A DNA stretch of 64,000 nucleotides. Origin: an uncultured Schlesneria sp. GTDB taxonomy: Bacteria; Planctomycetota; Planctomycetia; Planctomycetales; Planctomycetaceae. The notes below the pieces were generated by a model. It searched no databases, was not told the DNA's origin, and worked only from the letters and a program-made list of their open reading frames with translations. The position numbers and the translations under genes were made by a program. Below are positions 3,809 through 28,660 of the stretch, piece by piece. How positions within the stretch are numbered: position 1 is the first letter of the stretch; each line of letters begins with the position of its first letter. The stretch covers positions 1-64,000 of the forward strand of contig CAILLA010000022.1 of assembly GCA_903834925.1 (NCBI GenBank), given 5' to 3'.

Positions 3809-6214
3809 TCAAAATCCTGGCGCAACGGCTTCAACCAATTCCACGATCCCCACATCGATATATTGGCCTCCACCCGTTTGCTTGCAGTGGACAGCCAGCG
3901 TGTTGATGCCCGCTTTCAATGCCGCAGCGCTCTCGGGAGTCAGACGGAATGTTTGATAATCCGTCGAAAATCCCGCGGCTTTCGATGCCAGCACGCCGTT
4001 GATGTAAACCTCAGCATCTTCGTCGTGGTGCATGATCAGGCGGATTTTGCCGGTTGGCGTCGACTTTAATTCGAATGTCCGTCGAAGCCAAATGTCGTTC
4101 GACTTCCATTCGGTTCGAACGACAGAGCCGGGTGTCGACTTTTCGCCAAAACCTCCAGGTGCCGATTTCCAGGACGCGGCATCGAAGCCTGGTTTTTCCC
4201 AGCCGTCGACCGGCTTTTCGAGTTTGTAACTCCACGTCTGAGGCTCGGTTTTCGACGTTGGAACCAGAGTCTTTGCATGCCGCGCAGGTTGATGAAGTGC
4301 TTCGTGAACTTCCGCAGCAACAACCTGTGGCACCTTCATGACCTTGCGATCGTATGTCATCAGCCCGTTGACTTCGGTCTCGACGTCCGTGGTTTGCGTA
4401 TATACAGCCGCTGATAGGCCGGGTGAGGCGATCATGGGATGCAATTGCTCAAACAAGTCGACATAAGCAGCAGTCAGCGATTTCTGGTCCGTAAAACTGC
4501 GATAACCCCAGTTTTCCTTGCCTTGCCATGTGTGACCTTCAAGCGGCAAGCCGAGTCCACCAAATTCGCCTAGAACGGCAGCTCGTTGCTCAGTCGGAAC
4601 CGGAGCAAATGGCCCGGGGTAGCGATGGACGTCGATCACGTCGCCCACGGGGAAATCGTTTCCGCCAGATGCGCAATTCACCAATCTTGTTGGATCGTAC
4701 TCTTTGGTCCACTTGGTCACGGCAACGGTATCCGACTGTCCCCAACCTTCGTTGAACGGAACCCACATCACGATACAAGGATGATTTCGACGGGCATCAA
4801 TGATCGACTTCCATTCCCGTCGATAGTCGGCTGCCGATTCTGGCGACCGGACAAATTCTTTGTTGTCAAATTTTCCAAACGGATCCCATTCCGCTGATTG
4901 GTCGCCGCTGGGCATATCCTGCCAGACGATCATTCCCAGCTTATCGCAGTGGTAATACCATCGAGCCGGCTCAACCTTGACGTGTTTACGAATCATGTTG
5001 AAGCCGTAATTCTTCGTCTGCTCGATGTCGAACTTTAGGGCTGCATCAGTCGGAGCCGTATAAAGTCCATCCGGCCAGAACCCCTGATCGAGGGGTCCGA
5101 CTTGAAAAAGGGGCTGGTTATTCAGAAGGATTCGGGTGATCCCTTTTTCGTCTTTCCCAAGCGAGATTTTCCGCAAAGCCGTATACGATTTGACAAGGTC
5201 AGCCATCAGAACAGCAGGCCTGGTTTCGGTTCGAGGTTCATTTGACAACCATTCCTGACCGAAGCCCTGCAGGTCTGCCCCCGGATCGGCGACGAGCGCG
5301 ACATTGACATCGATCAGGTGTGGACGATCGGGCGTCCAGTAATTTATAAAAAAGCACTGACCCTCTTTTTTGAACGTGAAAGTAAATGGCTTATCGAGTT
5401 CCGTGTGCCATGCTTTCCCGGAAAACCCACAGGCTGCGGCCTTGGAATTCACGAAAATGCCAAGCTTCCAACCCGGTTGCGGATTGACGACATCAGCTTT
5501 GATCACAAATTGGGTTTGATCGAAATCGGGTGTAATCGAGACACTGCGAATATAGGTTTTGGGAACAGGCTCAAGCCAAACCGTCTGCCAGATCCCGGTC
5601 GTTGGTGTGTAGAAAATTCCGCCCGGTTTTTGAACCTGTTTTCCTCGACCTTGAAAACCAGCATCGCTTGGATCATAGACAGAAACAATCAATTCGTTCG
5701 CTCCGTCGAGCTTGATCAACGACGAAATATCAAAGCTGAATGGGTCGTAGCCCCCTTGATGTGAACCGAGTTCTTTTCCGTTCAACCAGACGGTGGTCTC
5801 CCAGTCGACGGCACCGAAGTGCAGTAGAGTGTTCTTGTCAGCCCAGGCAGGGTTAATTTTTCCATCCTTCGCTGGAACGGTAAATGTCCGGCGATACCAC
5901 AGCTTGTTGTCCGGGCCGACAAACTTCATGACGCCCGACAATGCCGATTCGACGGGAAACGGGACAAGGATTTTGTCCGCTTCCCATTTTTTCGGCGTTC
6001 CGTTGCCTTTCGGTTGGATGGCGTATTCCCATAGGCCGTTCAGATTCAGCCAGTGATCGCGTACCAGTTGCGGTCGCGGATATTCCGGATGGGCATTTTC
6101 TGGCGAAACTTCGGTAGCCCATTTGGTCATCAACGGAGCCGTTTTTGCCTTCCAATCAGCGGCAAACGAGGGAAGGGAACACAAGCAGATGGCCAATAAA
6201 CAAACGCGATACAT
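3809..6214 (-). CDS. Secreted glycoside hydrolase family 2 protein
   Basis: 801 residues with a signal peptide (MYRVCLLAICLCSLPSFAA). A sugar-binding jelly roll lies at about 45-215 (DHWLNLNGLWEYAI, FGAVDWETTVWLNGKELGSH), an immunoglobulin-like domain at about 220-345, and a TIM barrel at about 350-640. The GH2 acid/base Glu is in VPFNEGWG (about E489) and the likely nucleophile Glu in VLGEFGG (about E550). A further jelly-roll-like module follows at about 655-795 (HHDEDAEVYINGVLA). Family members are beta-galactosidases, beta-glucuronidases or beta-mannosidases acting on exported or imported glycans; the substrate is not readable. It stands alone, divergent from sucC across a 328-bp gap. Confidence 0.88.
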   Translation of the reverse strand: MYRVCLLAICLCSLPSFAADWKAKTAPLMTKWATEVSPENAHPEYPRPQLVRDHWLNLNGLWEYAIQPKGNGTPKKWEADKILVPFPVESALSGVMKFVGPDNKLWYRRTFTVPAKDGKINPAWADKNTLLHFGAVDWETTVWLNGKELGSHQGGYDPFSFDISSLIKLDGANELIVSVYDPSDAGFQGRGKQVQKPGGIFYTPTTGIWQTVWLEPVPKTYIRSVSITPDFDQTQFVIKADVVNPQPGWKLGIFVNSKAAACGFSGKAWHTELDKPFTFTFKKEGQCFFINYWTPDRPHLIDVNVALVADPGADLQGFGQEWLSNEPRTETRPAVLMADLVKSYTALRKISLGKDEKGITRILLNNQPLFQVGPLDQGFWPDGLYTAPTDAALKFDIEQTKNYGFNMIRKHVKVEPARWYYHCDKLGMIVWQDMPSGDQSAEWDPFGKFDNKEFVRSPESAADYRREWKSIIDARRNHPCIVMWVPFNEGWGQSDTVAVTKWTKEYDPTRLVNCASGGNDFPVGDVIDVHRYPGPFAPVPTEQRAAVLGEFGGLGLPLEGHTWQGKENWGYRSFTDQKSLTAAYVDLFEQLHPMIASPGLSAAVYTQTTDVETEVNGLMTYDRKVMKVPQVVAAEVHEALHQPARHAKTLVPTSKTEPQTWSYKLEKPVDGWEKPGFDAASWKSAPGGFGEKSTPGSVVRTEWKSNDIWLRRTFELKSTPTGKIRLIMHHDEDAEVYINGVLASKAAGFSTDYQTFRLTPESAAALKAGINTLAVHCKQTGGGQYIDVGIVELVEAVAPGF

Positions 6215-6542
6215 GGGTGAGCGCTTTCAGGAATACCAGAAGTGAGAGATTCGCCGGGAAGTCGCCGCGAAAATCGAGTTAAATTTAAACTACTCGCCAA
6301 ACGGCATTCCAGCAAGGATGACCGGCGACTGAATCAATCTCGGGTGTCAATGCGGGATCGTCACCGGGAAACAATCCGTCAATCCGGAATTTTAAGGGGA
6401 AATTCGCTGGTTTGATACGGGATCACGTAGACGCTATCGCGCCTTGTGGAACAATCTTCTGCACTGAGTTATCATCCACGGAAACCCCGTCGACTCGCTC
6501 GCTGGCGGGCAGATGTTGGTCGTTGCATCCACAGGACAAATT
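6215..6542. promoter_or_regulatory. Divergent promoter region between GH2 and sucC
   Basis: 328 bp between two divergent starts, so it should hold promoters for both. I see no clean -35/-10 pair or operator palindrome. The sucC frame is open from a TTG at 6513, but the conserved MKIHEY start at 6543 is preferred. Nothing else is visible here. Confidence 0.35.
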
Positions 6543-7730
6543 ATGAAGATTCACGAGTATCAAGCCAAGCAATTACTATCCGCCGCAGGCGTCAAAGTCC
6601 CACGAAATGTGGTGGCGAAGACGGCTGCTGAAGCGGCCGAGGGTTATAAAACGCTTGGGGGTGAAGTTGCCGTCGTCAAATCGCAAATCCATGCCGGGGG
6701 ACGGGGCAAGGGAACGTTCAAGCAACATCCCGAGCAACGCGGTGTGGTTCTGGTTAAATCTGCTGATGCTGCGAAGGATAATGCTGCCCGAATGCTGGGA
6801 AGCACACTCGTCACAATCCAGACCGGCCCTGAAGGCAAGCTGGTCAGCGCGTTGCTGATCGAAGAAGGTCTGAAGATCGCTCGCGAACTTTATCTGGGCG
6901 TTGTAGTCGATCGTGAGTCGGGAGGTCCGATTCTCATAGCGTCAACCGAGGGTGGGATGGACATTGAGGTTGTCGCCCACAAGACGCCTGAAAAAATTCT
7001 ACGTGAGCCATTCGATGTCGAAGCGGGACTCCGGCCGTTCCAAGCTCGTAATATCGCGTATCGACTTGGGTTAGAGGGACCATCAATTCGAGCTGCTGAA
7101 AAGATGCTGGCTCAGCTTTGCAAGTTCTTCATCGATCGCGATTGCAACATGGTTGAAATCAACCCGCTGGTCGTGACTGCCGAGGGCGACCTGGTTGTCG
7201 GTGACGCGAAGGTCTCGTTCGATGACAACGCGATGTTTCGACATCAAGACTTGCTTCCATTTCGAGACCTGTCCGAGGAAGAACCAATGGAAGTTCAAGC
7301 TCAAGCTTCAGGACTCAGCTACGTGAAGCTGGATGGAAACATCGGCTGTCTCGTGAATGGTGCAGGGCTGGCCATGAGCACCATGGACATCATCAAGTAC
7401 CACGGCGGTTTCCCGGCGAATTTCCTGGACGTCGGTGGTGGAGCGAACGTCGATCAGGTTACGGAAGCCTTCCGAATCATTCTGGCCGACCCGAACGTCA
7501 AGGCGGTTCTCGTTAATATCTTCGGCGGTATTATGAAGTGCGACACGATCGTGACCGCCCTGTTGACCGCTTATGACAAGATCGGGATCAAGGTTCCTCT
7601 GGTTGTCCGGTTGGAAGGAACCAATGTTGAACTCGCTCGCAAAATGCTGGCTGAAAGCGGCAAGCCAATTATTGTTGGTACCGACTTGACCGATGCAGCC
7701 CAGAAAGCTGTGAAGTCATTGGGTGCCTGA
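6543..7730 (+). CDS. sucC: Succinyl-CoA synthetase beta subunit (ADP-forming type)
   Basis: 395 residues, the usual length for SucC. The N-terminal ATP-grasp domain begins [12 protein letters not shown] and includes the nucleotide-binding [12 protein letters not shown]. The metal and phosphate residues follow ([20 protein letters not shown]), and the C-terminal ligase domain has [11 protein letters not shown] and [11 protein letters not shown]. With SucD it converts succinyl-CoA plus NDP and phosphate to succinate, CoA and NTP in the TCA cycle, in the cytosol. The start at 6543 matches the family's N-terminus. sucD follows after 116 bp on the same strand, so the two are probably co-transcribed. 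Confidence 0.97.
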
Positions 7731-23036: not shown

Positions 23037-23591
23037 CTATCTGACTTCCACCTCAGCGGGCGCGATCGTTCTTGCGGCAGATTCGCTTCCCGTAAATACA
23101 GGAAGTTTGCAACGGGTTGCCTCCCATCCGTGATGTTGCAACGTTCCTTGAAATGGTGCCGTGCCGGTTAACTTTCCTGTCAGTCGATACCGACCTGCAT
23201 CGAATCCCGCTGGTACTTCAATCGTCGCCCCTTCTTCGTCGTCACGAATGGATTTGATTGCAAAGAAACGGTCGAGAACACTCTTGCTTTCACGATGAAT
23301 TTCGCGGACCGCCGCACCAACCTGCTCGTCTGAATAATTGCTTAAATCTTCTTTGAGGAAATCGACGAGCCTCGCTTCCCGTTGCAGGGTTGCTAGAAGC
23401 GTGATCGCCTCACTTTGCAGGGGCTTGCTTTCTACAGGACGCGGTGTCTCTACAGGCTTCTGCGCTGGCTGTTCGCGAGCATCTTCCAAAATAGGACCTG
23501 GGACACTCAAAACTTCCCGCACCTTGGAGGCAATTTCCCTGTTAAACAGAGTTCCGAAAAAGACTCGAAACGCCGTCAAAATTCTTCCCAT
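23037..23591 (-). CDS. DUF2760 family protein
   Basis: 184 residues. The conserved core has ITLLATLQREARLVDFLKED, YSDEQVGAAVREIH, GATIEVPAGFD and YRLTGKLTGTAPFQGTLQHHGW, and matches what I recall of DUF2760. An N-terminal hydrophobic/basic segment is followed by a Pro/Glu-rich linker (about 35-60). Elsewhere this family sits next to Hsp70-like genes; here none is adjacent within the window. The function is unknown. It is convergent with the TPR-lipoprotein gene. Confidence 0.7.
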   Translation of the reverse strand: MGRILTAFRVFFGTLFNREIASKVREVLSVPGPILEDAREQPAQKPVETPRPVESKPLQSEAITLLATLQREARLVDFLKEDLSNYSDEQVGAAVREIHRESKSVLDRFFAIKSIRDDEEGATIEVPAGFDAGRYRLTGKLTGTAPFQGTLQHHGWEATRCKLPVFTGSESAARTIAPAEVEVR

Positions 23592-23675: not shown

Positions 23676-25685
23676 TCAACCAACGGGGAACGGGGCTTCG
23701 CGTCGGAATTCGTTAAAGTGCATGTATTCCCAATGTCGGTAGATGGGTGACTGGGCTACCAGTTTTTCGTGCGGCCCAAACGCCGCAACTTTTCCTTCAT
23801 GCAGAACCAGGACATGGTCCGTTCGACGGACTGTCGACATTCGGGCCGGCAGGAAAATGACGGTCCGCTCGCGACAAATGCGATCATACGCATCGGCAAG
23901 CAAAGTTTTTGTGTCGTCATCGAATTGAACCCAGGGTTCTTCAATAATCAAAAGCGCCGGGTTACGAACAATTGCACGAGCCAGCCCAAGTCGAAATCTC
24001 TGGCCAATATCCAGCGAATCGCCCTCACCTGACAGGACCGTTTCGTAACCGTTGAAAAGTTTCACGATGAAGTTATGCGCATGAGAGATCTTCGCGGCCT
24101 CGGTCACCTGTTGCAGCGTAAGTTCCGACTGCCCTCCGCGAATGTTTTCAAAGACTGTCCCTTCAAAGGGAGGATCATCAGCGGCAACAAAGACGGTTTC
24201 TGCCCGAAGCGATTCCAGCGTCACCCACGCAATATCCTCTCCGTCGATCATCACCCGACCTTCGCGCGGTTCAATAAATCGAGGCAGCATTAACGCCACT
24301 GCTTTTGCTTCCAGGGGATCAGCCGAGACGATTGCATAACATTTATCGACCTCGAATTTGAAATCGACACCGTCCAGAATTTTCTGGCCACTCTGGGAAA
24401 CATATTTGACGTTCTCAAAGTGAAGCGTTTTTCCCATCGGTTGCAAGAATTTGGCTCCGATCGCCTGACTGACTGTCGGAACCCGGTTGAGATAACGCTG
24501 GATTTTCTCAGCGGCAAAGCTAACGTCGTGACGAAATAACGGGAGCTTTTTCAACGCAAGAAGACTTGGGATCGACAAGGCGACAGTAGCAAAGAACGTG
24601 AATCCTTCGGCAACAGTGAATCGATCGAAAGAGGAAGTGACATTTGACGTCAAGACGTTGCTGCAAACGAGAAACACGAGAAATGCCATCAAGCCGGCAC
24701 AAGCGAAGACGACAAAAGTACCCGGATGATTAATGGCGTCTGACGTGAACAGGTAATCATTCAACCGAGAATGGTAACGATTCAGATGCTTTTGAAACTG
24801 TTCGTGCTCGTCACGTTCAATTCCCAGTCCGCGAGTGAGCCTGGCGTTCTTAAAGTTTGCCAATAAAACGTATTGTTCGTCGCGACTGCGATCTTCAGCC
24901 AGACGACTTTTCTGCAATGCGGCACGCCGGACACTATTCATCAATAAAGTACCAAGAACTAGCGCCGCAAGCCACTGAAGGGATAATTGCCAGTTCAGGC
25001 TGAGCAGCACAAACGACAAGCCGAACAGTTCGAGCGGATACCGGCAGATCGTCGAAATCGATTCAAACAGTCCATTTCGCAGGATTTCCACATCATCAAC
25101 AAATAGCTGGTTCGCCAGTTCGTTTCCGGTGCCGTCCAGATCTTCAGGACTGATCCTTAAAATTTGGCGGTGTAGCTGGCGCCTTGCAGCAGTGATACCG
25201 TCGATGGAGGCTCGATGGCTGTGGTATCGGATACGCCCCAGGCAAAAAGATCTCAATACGAACAGCAAGACTCCAATGGATAAAATCCAAATCAAGGCCA
25301 GAATGTTCGTTTGCAACCAGCTTACCTCTCGGTACAGGATCGAAATGGCACTTCCGCACCAATTGTTGCGTGACTGCCAGACCGCAGGGAGAATGCCACG
25401 CTCGTCATAGAAGACATGGGTCGATTCAGGAAATTCCGGCGATTCGGATGTCGCGTCCCGATTGTCAATTGCTATCTGCGAACCGCCCGCGGCTTTCAAT
25501 CCCGTCAATTCTTCAAATTGTGTCGCTTCCGTAGGTGAAAGAACCAGGTCGATCCGGCCCCGATCGACGAGAAGTCCGACCAACAGGCTCAGGTCAAGCA
25601 ACAATAAAACAAGAAAGACCACTGCTGGGATGGACCAAAGTACTGCGAATCGTGCCTGACCATGAATCAAGCTTCGTCGAGACAT
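23676..25685 (-). CDS. ABC-exporter-like protein with degenerate nucleotide-binding domain
   Basis: 669 residues from the ATG at 25685. Residues about 10-380 form the six-helix membrane half of a type-IV exporter. The C-terminal domain (about 415-650) has ABC topology but altered motifs. The P-loop position reads SADPLEAKAVAL instead of GxxGxGK[ST]. The signature reads DSLDIGQRF instead of LSGGQ. Walker B reads LLIIEEP, so the Asp is replaced by Glu. The switch histidine region reads LPARMSTVR, so the His is replaced by Ala. ATP hydrolysis is therefore doubtful. Possible roles are as the degenerate half of a heterodimer or a non-transport membrane scaffold. The ABC-2 permease gene lies 178 bp upstream on the same strand. 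Confidence 0.75.
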   Translation of the reverse strand: MSRRSLIHGQARFAVLWSIPAVVFLVLLLLDLSLLVGLLVDRGRIDLVLSPTEATQFEELTGLKAAGGSQIAIDNRDATSESPEFPESTHVFYDERGILPAVWQSRNNWCGSAISILYREVSWLQTNILALIWILSIGVLLFVLRSFCLGRIRYHSHRASIDGITAARRQLHRQILRISPEDLDGTGNELANQLFVDDVEILRNGLFESISTICRYPLELFGLSFVLLSLNWQLSLQWLAALVLGTLLMNSVRRAALQKSRLAEDRSRDEQYVLLANFKNARLTRGLGIERDEHEQFQKHLNRYHSRLNDYLFTSDAINHPGTFVVFACAGLMAFLVFLVCSNVLTSNVTSSFDRFTVAEGFTFFATVALSIPSLLALKKLPLFRHDVSFAAEKIQRYLNRVPTVSQAIGAKFLQPMGKTLHFENVKYVSQSGQKILDGVDFKFEVDKCYAIVSADPLEAKAVALMLPRFIEPREGRVMIDGEDIAWVTLESLRAETVFVAADDPPFEGTVFENIRGGQSELTLQQVTEAAKISHAHNFIVKLFNGYETVLSGEGDSLDIGQRFRLGLARAIVRNPALLIIEEPWVQFDDDTKTLLADAYDRICRERTVIFLPARMSTVRRTDHVLVLHEGKVAAFGPHEKLVAQSPIYRHWEYMHFNEFRREAPFPVG

Positions 25686-25863
25686 GATCCGTTCAAGCGA
25701 ACTTGGATGAGACACTTCCACGATCGATGCCAATCCGCGAGAGAAACAGCCATCCCCTCCGTGCATTGAGACGACCGCACCGGAACGGTCTTGTAACGAT
25801 CATTATCATCACGAGATTTGGGTCAAAATGAAACTGATCACGTGAGAATCCCAATCTTCACGC

Positions 25864-26811
25864 CTATGCCAGGTCGCGGTCTTCAAACAAAATGAATGCC
25901 ATTAAGATGGCTGCGCAACAATAGCATGCACAATAGATGGCTGAATATCCAAGGTAGATCGGCGGCACAATATCCCCGGTCGCAACAGCCGCGCTGATGT
26001 TAAAAAGATCCAGCGACGGCAGAATTGTTGCGATTAATCGAGCCATAAACTGGACGAATTCCAGTTTCAAGACACCGGCCTGCACCATCAACCCTGTGAG
26101 ATGCCCCACGACGAAAATTGCGAAACAACTCGTCAGATTGACGACCATGGGAAGTCGTGTCGAAATCGCCACGCTCACTGCGGTCAATACGGCAATCTCC
26201 ATTAAAAGCAAACCGATACCAGGAAGAACCTGATAAACTTCATGGATTCGCTCGGCATGTGGAGGAACATCTTTCGAGCCTTCCCGGGCGTCGTAACTGA
26301 CCTTGAAATAAATCAGAACCAGGAAAACCGTTACCACAGGAAGCATGTACCACAGGACCGCTTGAAGGATCCCGATGTACTTCCCAAGCACAAATTGACG
26401 GCGATTGATCGGCTTTGAAAGCAGCGTCATCGCTGTTTTGCCGTCGATTTCTTCCGCCACACTGGTGCTGGCGGTCCAGACAGCGATGAGGAGTCCTGTA
26501 ATCAGCAACGTTGCCAAGCCGCAATCCTTAACCATCTTCACGTCTTCGCCGAGCGAAAAGAATGGAAGGACATAGTTTAGAAGCAGAATCACAATGGCAA
26601 GTGCCATACAGAGCAGGAAAACCGGTTGCCGGACAGCCTCTTTCGTTGTGGCCCGGGCAATAATTCCCGCCTTTGTCGTGTAGTTAAAGCCAATGAGCGC
26701 CAAAAGAAGTACGACGCAGGCCAGAATTGTCGGAATCCAATTCACCGTCCCTTGTTGTGAGACGTCTTCCAAAGCCAGCAGCAAGGAGGGAAAAAGAGTC
26801 GACGGCAGCAT
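25864..26811 (-). CDS. ABC-2-type transporter permease
   Basis: 315 residues from the ATG at 26811 (a TTG at 26817 adds two residues). Six or seven transmembrane helices are visible, with the conserved ABC-2 cytosolic motif [31 protein letters not shown] after the second helix (conserved core EIDGKT...LLSKP). This family forms the membrane part of ATP-driven exporters of glycans, drugs or lipids, or of gliding-type complexes. No matching canonical ATPase gene is adjacent; the nearest ABC-like domain is the degenerate one downstream. The substrate is unknown. Confidence 0.8.
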
Positions 26812-27087
26812 GTACAACCTCGCGGTAACGAAAAAAACACCAATTCTGGGACGGATCTGAGTTTAGACGGATCAGATGCGGTCGCGATGCGTACGTCGAA
26901 ACCTGACGATCCGTTGGACAGAAGCCATGAATGTACCGCCGTTGACGACCGAAGAAAACCGGTCACATCGATTTGTTCACAAATTCCTGTTTCCGGCAGG
27001 AATGCGGAAAACGTGACCTGATGTACAGACAATGATTTTCGCTTGAAGATACTACGGCAGGCCGTATTGCGAAAATGAGAAAAATGT

Positions 27088-27182: not shown

Positions 27183-28034
27183 TCAAAGATCGTTAATGTA
27201 ATACAGCGGCGTCTGAATAAATCGCTGTTGCCGTTCCCGATCACTAAACAACCAGATCCGCCCTCTCCATGTCACCGCCATCCGAGGGTCACCCTTCCCC
27301 GCTGACGCACCTTCTCGAGAACTGACCAGACATTGACCGTTTGCCACGGGCCAATATTTCTCAGGATCTGCCAGGAATTTCTGGCGATGTTCATCCGATT
27401 GGAAGCAGATCGTCTGACCACGATGCTCTGCCAGGAATTCCATCGATCCCCTACGAACTCGACTCTCCTCCAATATGCTGACCAGGCAATAACCATCAAA
27501 TCCCAGTGAAATGGCATTGGCGGGTTGCAGGGCAGAAACGGGTTCGTTGGAATCTTTCAACACTTCTTTTTGCGTGCGAATCGAAATCGATGAATTCGAA
27601 AGCGATGACATGTTTGCAATCAGATCCCCAGCCGATTGAAAACCCGACATCCGCTTGAGAATGGACAGATCCGGAGTGACCACCATTGTCGTTGGGAATG
27701 CTTCAACGCCAAACCCTGTAACGAGTTCCGGGTGCTCATCTGCGTCGATCATGTAAGGGACAAAGTTCGATTGAACAAGGTCAACCACACGAGAATCGGT
27801 AAAGGTGAGCTGTTTCATCTGACGGCACGGACCACACCAGGTCGCCGTCACACTGATGATTAACGGCTTTCCATCGCGAGTCGCTTCGTCGACAGCCCGT
27901 CGATATGACGGCCGCCAGTCAATCGACGGAGCTTTTTCGAATCCTCCGTAATCCTGAGCCTCGGCAGGGATCACTCCTAAGGCGATCGCTACCAGGCTGC
28001 TTTTCAGAGCATTCATTAATCGCAGTTTTCGCAT
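27183..28034 (-). CDS. Secreted thioredoxin-fold protein with two YHS-like domains
   Basis: 283 residues from the ATG at 28034, with a signal peptide ending near IPAEAQDYGG. A thioredoxin domain (about 25-130) has the redox motif ATWCGPCRQM and a cis-proline loop (VEAFPTTMVV). After a short linker come two consecutive YHS-like units: GFDGYCLVSI...ICFQSDEHRQKFLADPEKYWP, then NGQCLVSSRE...IWLFSDRERQQRFIQTPLYY. YHS domains are small metal-associated folds named for a Tyr-His-Ser motif. The combination suggests a periplasmic reductase that handles a metal or metalloprotein, which is an inference. It has its own terminator downstream. Confidence 0.75.
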   Translation of the reverse strand: MRKLRLMNALKSSLVAIALGVIPAEAQDYGGFEKAPSIDWRPSYRRAVDEATRDGKPLIISVTATWCGPCRQMKQLTFTDSRVVDLVQSNFVPYMIDADEHPELVTGFGVEAFPTTMVVTPDLSILKRMSGFQSAGDLIANMSSLSNSSISIRTQKEVLKDSNEPVSALQPANAISLGFDGYCLVSILEESRVRRGSMEFLAEHRGQTICFQSDEHRQKFLADPEKYWPVANGQCLVSSREGASAGKGDPRMAVTWRGRIWLFSDRERQQRFIQTPLYYINDL

Positions 28035-28660
28035 ACCAACCTCCTGGGCCGAACCTTCGGTTCTCAAATCCATCCATGTCCTCTGCCTTGGTGGCTCACG
28101 GCCCATTCGTATCGCCACCAAGCTTCAAGGAAGCCCAAAGGATAGTTGCGACTTAGGGGGCGTGCCATCGACTCAAGGATCCCAACCTTTCAGTTTCGCA
28201 AGCTGCAAAAAAAGTGACTTGATTTTGTGAGCCAAATTACTTGCGACTTTCGTCAAAATTCCGCTGATCTCGTCGGCTTGAACAAATTGGCTAAACCACA
28301 TTGGAAACCAAAACAATATCTCTTAAGCGATATGACCACTGGCATAAATTGCCGGTGAAATTTTCCGTAACCTTATATTTTGTAAGTATTTGCGGATCAG
28401 GAAGCTTGTGAGTATTACGACGAAAACTCGCTGACAAAATTTCTCGCTCTGACAGCACGATCAATCAATCCGATAGCCACGACAGACCTGAACTCCTTTA
28501 CGCGCTCGTCTAGGGGGAATGGAAGTCAGTAAGAGCGTCGTGATGCACGCGATTGTGGTTGCCGTACGCCAAGACGGCAGCCGCAAGCTCGGTGGTCGTC
28601 CACGGACGAACAACGAGACGACGCTGAGTTCAGTTGGAATAAAATCACAAGGAGTGGCAG
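28035..28660. other. Long 5' region of the porin gene
   Basis: 626 bp between the divergent thioredoxin and porin starts. It contains the candidate promoter listed separately, an approximately 240-base untranslated leader, and a small GCCGTACGCCAAGACGGC-type hairpin near 28561-28578. An AAGGAG ribosome-binding site lies 7-8 bases before the porin ATG. No gene is supported here. Confidence 0.35.
28390..28418 (+). promoter_or_regulatory. Candidate sigma70-type promoter of the porin gene
   Basis: TTGCGG (28390-28395) and TATTAC (28413-28418) are separated by 17 bp, on the strand of and upstream of a gene that looks highly expressed. The predicted leader is about 240 bases. This is a pattern match only. 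Confidence 0.35.

Follow-up and report, generated by a model that had tools for sequence, protein, structure and literature searches.

What does an ABC exporter do once it has lost its ATP-binding motifs, and is such a protein still maintained by selection? This question is raised by one gene in a 64,000-nucleotide stretch of DNA from an uncultured Schlesneria sp. (the whole stretch is called the window here), in which an earlier note had pointed out altered ATPase motifs and a neighbouring permease. Here, both genes were followed through their relatives in the same bacterial class.

Gene extent and predicted fold

The gene under study is the following.
23676..25766, minus strand: pseudo-ABC exporter, a degenerate MsbA-like half-transporter with a membrane domain (TMD) and a nucleotide-binding domain (NBD), by Pfam, MsbA model, AF2 and VIA

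The open reading frame encodes 696 aa from the ATG at 25766 and has the layout of a full-length MsbA-like exporter. Position 25685, taken as the boundary in the earlier note, is an internal ATG of this frame and yields 669 aa. Because an N-terminal segment resembling FQRVFPRRELFRG is common to several orthologues and its counterpart in the window, SLERIMSRRSLIHG, starts upstream of ATG 25685, the longer start is the likelier one.

A Pfam scan detected ABC_membrane (57.8 bits) and ABC_tran (35.7 bits), and the alignment of the latter begins at profile position 30, i.e., past the P-loop. The best curated model was that of MsbA (TIGR02203), and the score of 197.4 bits is below the equivalog cut-off of 602. 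In the 72 PF00005 matches of the same genome (E ≤ 1e-5), the pseudo-exporter ranked second lowest, at 39 bits. Modelling with AlphaFold, as the earlier note had proposed, predicted an exporter fold (AF2, pLDDT 80.0, pTM 0.61), and TM287/288, ABCB10 and MsbA were among the Foldseek matches listed for this model. The VIA comparison gave Z 30.9 with TmrA (rmsd 4.1, 571 aligned) and Z 29.4 with an NBD crystal structure (rmsd 2.0, 246 aligned); absence from the Foldseek or VIA-align match lists carries no evidential weight. A six-TM exporter domain and a C-terminal NBD are thus present by Pfam, AF2 model and VIA, and the view that overall length and topology are kept was borne out.

ATPase motifs in the window protein and its relatives

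Alignment placed the ATPase motif sites of the protein as follows.
24300..24326, minus strand: Walker A/P-loop site, SADPLEAKA, acidic, without glycines and without the Lys-Ser/Thr pair
24180..24182, minus strand: Q-loop Gln site, now Ala
24000..24014, minus strand: ABC signature site, LDIGQ versus LSGGQ
23934..23954, minus strand: Walker B site, LLIIEEP, Asp changed to Glu, catalytic Glu retained
23841..23852, minus strand: switch (H-loop) site, LPAR, His absent

In the P-loop, the three glycines are replaced by S, P and E, the Lys by A and the Ser/Thr by K, and the Walker A pattern of an active type IV ABC exporter, GxxGxGK[ST], is not present. The signature has D for Ser and I for the first Gly, the Q-loop Gln and the switch His have both become A, and the Walker B Asp has become E, so that LSGGQ, Walker B Asp, Q-loop Gln and switch His are all four missing. 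The replacement of the P-loop glycines, the signature, the Walker B Asp and the switch His had been read from the letters before, and it was confirmed by alignment, the same motifs being broken in 30 orthologues of the own family. The broader statement that all catalytic elements are altered was correct for Walker A, Q-loop, signature, Walker B Asp and His, but not for the catalytic Glu (the second E of IIEEP) and the D-loop Asp, which are retained.

The motifs were then counted from a MAFFT alignment, in which the P-loop register is possibly one position off, using 80 named loci of the own family (these may overlap the genomes of the 61-genome family search below), 21 degenerate sequences from six other families and 27 canonical exporters. 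In the own family, Walker A Lys, Q-loop Gln and H-loop His were each found in 0/80 loci, and Walker B Asp and signature Ser in 3/80 each; catalytic Glu was retained in 79/80 and D-loop Asp in 68/80. For the other families, the count was 0/21 for the second and third P-loop Gly, for the Ser/Thr and for the Walker B Asp, and the residues still kept were Lys (13/21), Q-loop Gln (16/21), His (14/21) and catalytic Glu (21/21). The canonical exporters had the Walker A Lys in 27/27, and P-loop, Q-loop Gln, Walker B Asp and His were kept in all 27. An acidic residue inside the P-loop was present in 101/101 degenerate sequences versus 1/27 canonical ones, and in 51/80 own-family and 18/21 other-family members the old Lys or Ser/Thr site carried a basic residue while the Walker B Asp site carried an acidic one. 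The P-loop was lost in 30/30 own-family orthologues aligned, and none of the own-family orthologues read had an intact one; in the same alignment, 7/7 paralogues from the same genome keep P-loop, Q-loop, Walker B Asp and His. Two canonical paralogues of this genome, L002 (C138) and L005 (C158), are two residues longer just behind the H-loop His region (THCLTPTL and THAMTPSL).

Distribution, single origin and selection

A search of the own family (E ≤ 1e-60) gave one match in 60/61 genomes, the own genome counted. Two of the 60 matches were short (open frames of 290 and 222 aa), and seven had one or two internal stops, their open frames being 622 aa or longer. G043, the one genome of the family with no match at this threshold, has a single profile match and is also without c1, the permease described below. 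The nearest named records belong to uncultured Schlesneria (family Planctomycetaceae), with 81-82% identity.

In the class sample, the pseudo-exporter was first recognised in 102/148 genomes (36 of the own family and 66 of other families), 100 of them at a profile score of at least 362 bits (with G142 as a fragment); the other two, G066 and G149, scored lower, but their motifs proved degenerate. Outside the own family, the motif reading covered 21 of the 66 genomes. Profile score alone fails to separate degenerate from canonical exporters near 360 bits: G236, from outside the class (369 bits), is a canonical exporter, and so is the second copy of G130 (357 bits). The neighbourhood of c1 was then read in all 42 remaining c1 genomes. 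Ten of them had a strongly diverged exporter-like ORF directly after c1 (77.9-245.5 bits; two in family f5), none with an intact P-loop, and G076 had a degenerate exporter fragment at a contig end. With these diverged copies, the total is 113/148 class genomes, in the own family and seven others. In the remaining 31 c1 genomes, no exporter-like ORF was found directly after c1 at E ≤ 1e-3, and unlinked diverged copies are possible there. Three of the ten diverged copies, with a barely recognisable NBD, still adjoin c1. The NBD is almost unrecognisable (77.9-84.8 bits) in L153:5663-7639 (-), L349:2719-4578 (-) and L356:1498-3378 (+), which are from small f3 genomes.

A tree was calculated with the motif columns removed (62 rows, including 14 of the 30 own-family rows; several long branches were flagged, three of them degenerate rows). 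All 35 degenerate rows fell on one side of a 100/100 branch and the 27 canonical rows on the other. ABC exporters ancestrally have a functional ATPase, and one early loss therefore explains the 35 degenerate rows. Whether the substitutions are fixed among homologues had been raised in the earlier note; in the own family the Walker A Lys is found in 0/80 loci, and degenerate relatives were read in seven other families. Homologues with intact P-loops, which were to speak for a misread or decaying copy, do exist, yet they lie across the 100/100 branch.

Whole-gene dN/dS was 0.077-0.114 in six pairs of close relatives with dS < 1.4 and 0.059-0.095 in four pairs with larger dS; five further pairs were not computable. 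In four pairs, all of pseudo-exporters, dN/dS of the NBD was 0.031-0.044 versus 0.098-0.156 for the TMD, approximate values with dS of the parts at 0.68-1.7. Mean column conservation in the own family agreed with this contrast (NBD 0.67, linker 0.62, segments of the membrane part 0.18-0.51). By these estimates, purifying selection on the dead NBD is stronger than on the membrane part, although canonical exporters, too, have an NBD more conserved than the TMD, which counts against reading the constraint as special. A decaying pseudogene or a local misreading of a normal exporter, for which the broken motifs are all that speaks, is refuted by the same losses across the family, the single clade and a dN/dS of about 0.1, and we assign it practically no probability.

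Pairing with the permease c1

The gene before the pseudo-exporter is the following.
25864..26817, minus strand: c1, an orphan NosY-like ABC-2 (type V) permease, by Pfam, profile and fold; directly upstream, 97 bases from the longer start

The product of c1 has an ABC-2 permease fold and a sequence relation to NosY (profile E 0.0018; fold E 2.1e-4, TM 0.54/0.65). The gene is present in 144/148 class genomes and in 113/113 genomes with the pseudo-exporter, which makes the pseudo-exporter look like an addition to c1. In the genomes first recognised, c1 was upstream on the same strand in 34/36 of the own family and 56/66 of the other families (matches 22-1062 bases apart), and the ten diverged exporter-like genes were 4-66 bases from the c1 frame or overlapped it by 15. 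Overall, c1 was directly upstream on the same strand in 100/113 (34/36 + 56/66 + 10/11), a count that is biased because the search for the last ten, diverged copies was made next to c1. The two genes were not adjacent in the assembly in 13/113 genomes; in G033 and G129, whose genomes are complete, the separation is real, and the pseudo-exporters of G073, G142 and G076 lie at contig ends. By gene order, c1 and the pseudo-exporter are a conserved gene pair, and such adjacency is not complex formation.

That the permease has no ATPase beside it, as noted earlier, was confirmed in the window, and its pairing with the pseudo-exporter proved to be conserved in the class. Of the 79 loci fetched, 73 bear c1 (19 of these come from other classes), and none of the 73 had an ATPase gene immediately beside c1; one was found elsewhere in the fetched stretch in 7/79 loci. 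No candidate ATPase adjoining c1 was found among the 72 PF00005 matches of the own genome or among the 37 and 35 matches of two small class genomes. The c1 relatives from other classes of the phylum (L155-L173) had an ATPase match in the fetched stretch in 0/19 loci. In genomes where no pseudo-exporter was recognised, the c1 open frames of L134, L139, L146, L147 and L150 (f5, f11, f10, f12 and f15) are about 509-566 aa versus the usual 315 or so, which suggests an additional N-terminal portion.

One of the genomes with the genes apart, G129, is Planctopirus limnophila DSM 3776, as 1000 bases matched plasmid NC_014149.1 (37010 bp) at 100%. Both genes are present and unlinked, the pseudo-exporter at about 4247652-4249661 (+) and c1 at about 75858-76766 (-) of the chromosome, and the exporter motifs are degenerate. 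Since this is a laboratory strain and a genome-wide transposon screen of the species has been published (PMC10632474), the proposed role is directly testable.

Other neighbours and a possible link to the envelope

An acylphosphatase gene was upstream of c1 on the same strand in 41/73 c1 loci, with Pfam PF00708 in 4/4 checked. By group, it was found in 9/18 own-family loci, 12/16 other-family loci with the pseudo-exporter, 17/20 other loci of the class and 3/19 c1 loci from other classes of the phylum, and in 4/24 further loci that had been fetched with little upstream sequence. Examples are L118:6940-7278 (+), L049:12002-12298 (-), L136:6040-6330 (+) and L155:1850-2305 (+). No acylphosphatase gene was found in the whole window.

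In 13/79 loci from nine families, c1 was convergent with a whole or partial OmpH-LpxC-LpxA-oxidoreductase cluster, whose genes were identified by NCBIfam and Pfam in three loci. This neighbourhood occurred in 0/20 own-family loci, 2/20 other-family loci with the pseudo-exporter, 11/20 further class loci and 0/19 loci of other classes, so that only 2 of the 13 carry the pseudo-exporter. Because the convergent order is positional and not that of an operon, it only hints at the outer membrane. In L144, a GFO/IDH/MocA oxidoreductase follows LpxA (5494-7029, +), which presumably resembles GnnA, an enzyme serving diamino-sugar lipid A. We considered whether c1 and the pseudo-exporter replace the LPS extractor LptFG, and rejected this as LptF/LptG-family genes were present in 8/8 genomes tested. 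In Planctopirus limnophila, nearly all genes for lipid A synthesis (lpxABCDKL) are essential, according to the part of the screen report consulted (PMC10632474).

On the other side of the pseudo-exporter lies the following gene.
23037-23591, minus strand: DUF2760 protein by Pfam (162 bits), immediately following the pseudo-exporter

This gene was rejected as a part of the module, since the cluster was found in 2/20 own-family loci (the window and L045, the latter by place and length), and its position beside the pseudo-exporter was not conserved in the other genera sampled. The window also encodes a thioredoxin-like protein at 27183-28121 (-), the C-terminal part of which resembles the YHS (seleno)protein domain (49.9 bits versus a cut-off of 70).

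Possible role of the pseudo-exporter

We consider it probable, taking both statements jointly, that this lineage lost its ATP-binding motifs early in the class and has been maintained since, and that the protein is a fixed pseudo-transporter serving the c1 permease as a scaffold or regulator without the use of ATP. The basis is motif loss, one clade of 35 rows, NBD constraint, a predicted exporter fold and frequent pairing with c1, all drawn from sequence. The membrane domain, the coupling-helix regions and the NBD would have been retained after ATP binding was lost, with NBD and coupling helices conserved as a surface rather than an engine. The protein would dimerise as other exporters do, its NBDs would no longer open and close with ATP, and it may hold or regulate c1 through the NBD/coupling-helix surface, the conserved linker QAVGA.F..P and the C-terminal motif YRHWEY..FN; 11/13 of the conserved TMD charges are in intracellular helices. 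The ATPase of c1 itself would be encoded elsewhere. A role of the module in cell-envelope lipid traffic is speculative, and is suggested by the MsbA-like exporter, by the position of c1 next to lpxC/lpxA in nine other families and by the acylphosphatase that often precedes c1. More tentatively, and with considerable doubt, a single conversion early in the history of the class may have made the whole exporter a structural subunit, independent of ATP, of a NosY-like permease. The acidic residues now fixed in the P-loop, accompanied in most members by a basic residue at the original position of Lys or Ser/Thr, would then stand in for the nucleotide and lock the NBD. The result would be a mixed type IV/type V envelope assembly, perhaps including the acylphosphatase, tied to outer-membrane lipid biogenesis. 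If the scaffold or regulator reading is true, selection can act on the assembly of NBD and coupling helices for a function that needs no ATP, and a bacterial class known for its odd cell biology has a new complex in its envelope.

Of the two readings offered in the earlier note, a non-transport membrane scaffold is now better supported, and the inactive half of a heterodimeric exporter, whose ATPase would come from a canonical half encoded elsewhere (e.g., of the L002 or L005 type), is weakened and in our judgement unlikely. The closest folds include TM287/288 and TmrAB among the matches listed, degenerate halves are common in ABC exporters, as described in part of PMC7756269, and canonical exporters are present in the same genome. 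However, such canonical relatives were read also in genomes without a recognised pseudo-exporter, none was directly beside it in 40 loci (in L126, an exporter-like ORF with a strong ATPase score lies about 5 kb away), and the partner conserved next to it is no half-exporter but an ABC-2 permease. A place in an ordinary heterodimer is less likely because a single chain has lost Walker A, Walker B Asp and signature, so that both composite sites formed with a canonical partner would be crippled.

The retained catalytic Glu (79/80 and 21/21) is not accounted for by a pure scaffold, and residual nucleotide contact may persist in the other families, to judge from their Gln (16/21), His (14/21) and Lys (13/21). 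Together with the D-loop Asp kept in 68/80 own-family loci and the strong constraint on the NBD, these residues would suit a SUR-like sensor that binds a nucleotide, or some other ligand from the cytosol, without hydrolysing it and gates c1. We regard this as quite unlikely, since the second and third P-loop Gly are lost in 21/21 other-family sequences and the Lys in 80/80 own-family loci, the acidic P-loop residue of 101/101 should repel phosphates, and the NBD is degraded almost beyond recognition in some members. Exchange of ATP for a proton gradient, as in SbmA/BacA, appears highly improbable: SbmA demonstrates that an exporter TMD can work without an ATPase, but it has lost NBD and coupling helices (available text of PMC13316013), whereas in the pseudo-exporter the stronger constraint is on the NBD, not on the TMD, and the TM segments, as delimited from the AF2 secondary structure, contain no conserved acidic residue.

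Comparison with known systems

The pseudo-exporter shares domain order, length and predicted fold with MsbA and other type IV (ABCB-like) exporters, and differs from MsbA in being without Walker A, Q-loop, signature, Walker B Asp and H-loop. Degenerate ABC exporters are already known as one half of a dimer with a working site. As in the heterodimeric exporters TAP, TM287/288 and TmrAB, and also in Pdr5, in which all motifs of one site are altered (part of PMC7756269), the degenerate motifs were kept over evolution. The TAP, TM287/288 and TmrAB dimers, however, retain one consensus site, whereas the losses of the pseudo-exporter all fall in one chain. What is new here is that exporter architecture and NBD constraint persist after a single chain has lost Walker A, Walker B Asp and signature.

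SbmA/BacA of the SLiPT family likewise has an exporter TMD that is no longer ATP-driven, as is proposed for the pseudo-exporter; it lost the NBD and coupling helices and uses protons with a glutamate ladder in the TMD, according to the portion of PMC13316013 consulted. Unlike the SLiPT proteins, which are defined by having no NBD, the pseudo-exporter retains a strongly constrained one. In NosDFY, NosY is resembled by c1 in profile and fold, but no counterpart of the adjacent ATPase (NosF) was found immediately beside c1, which is paired with the pseudo-exporter instead. Among the matches listed from the open-licence PMC literature, no title or abstract opening was on a planctomycete pseudo-ABC exporter. 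SUR1 and SUR2, eukaryotic ABC proteins that bind nucleotides and regulate KATP channels, have an ABC-exporter fold that regulates another membrane protein, as proposed here for c1, although the partner is unrelated.
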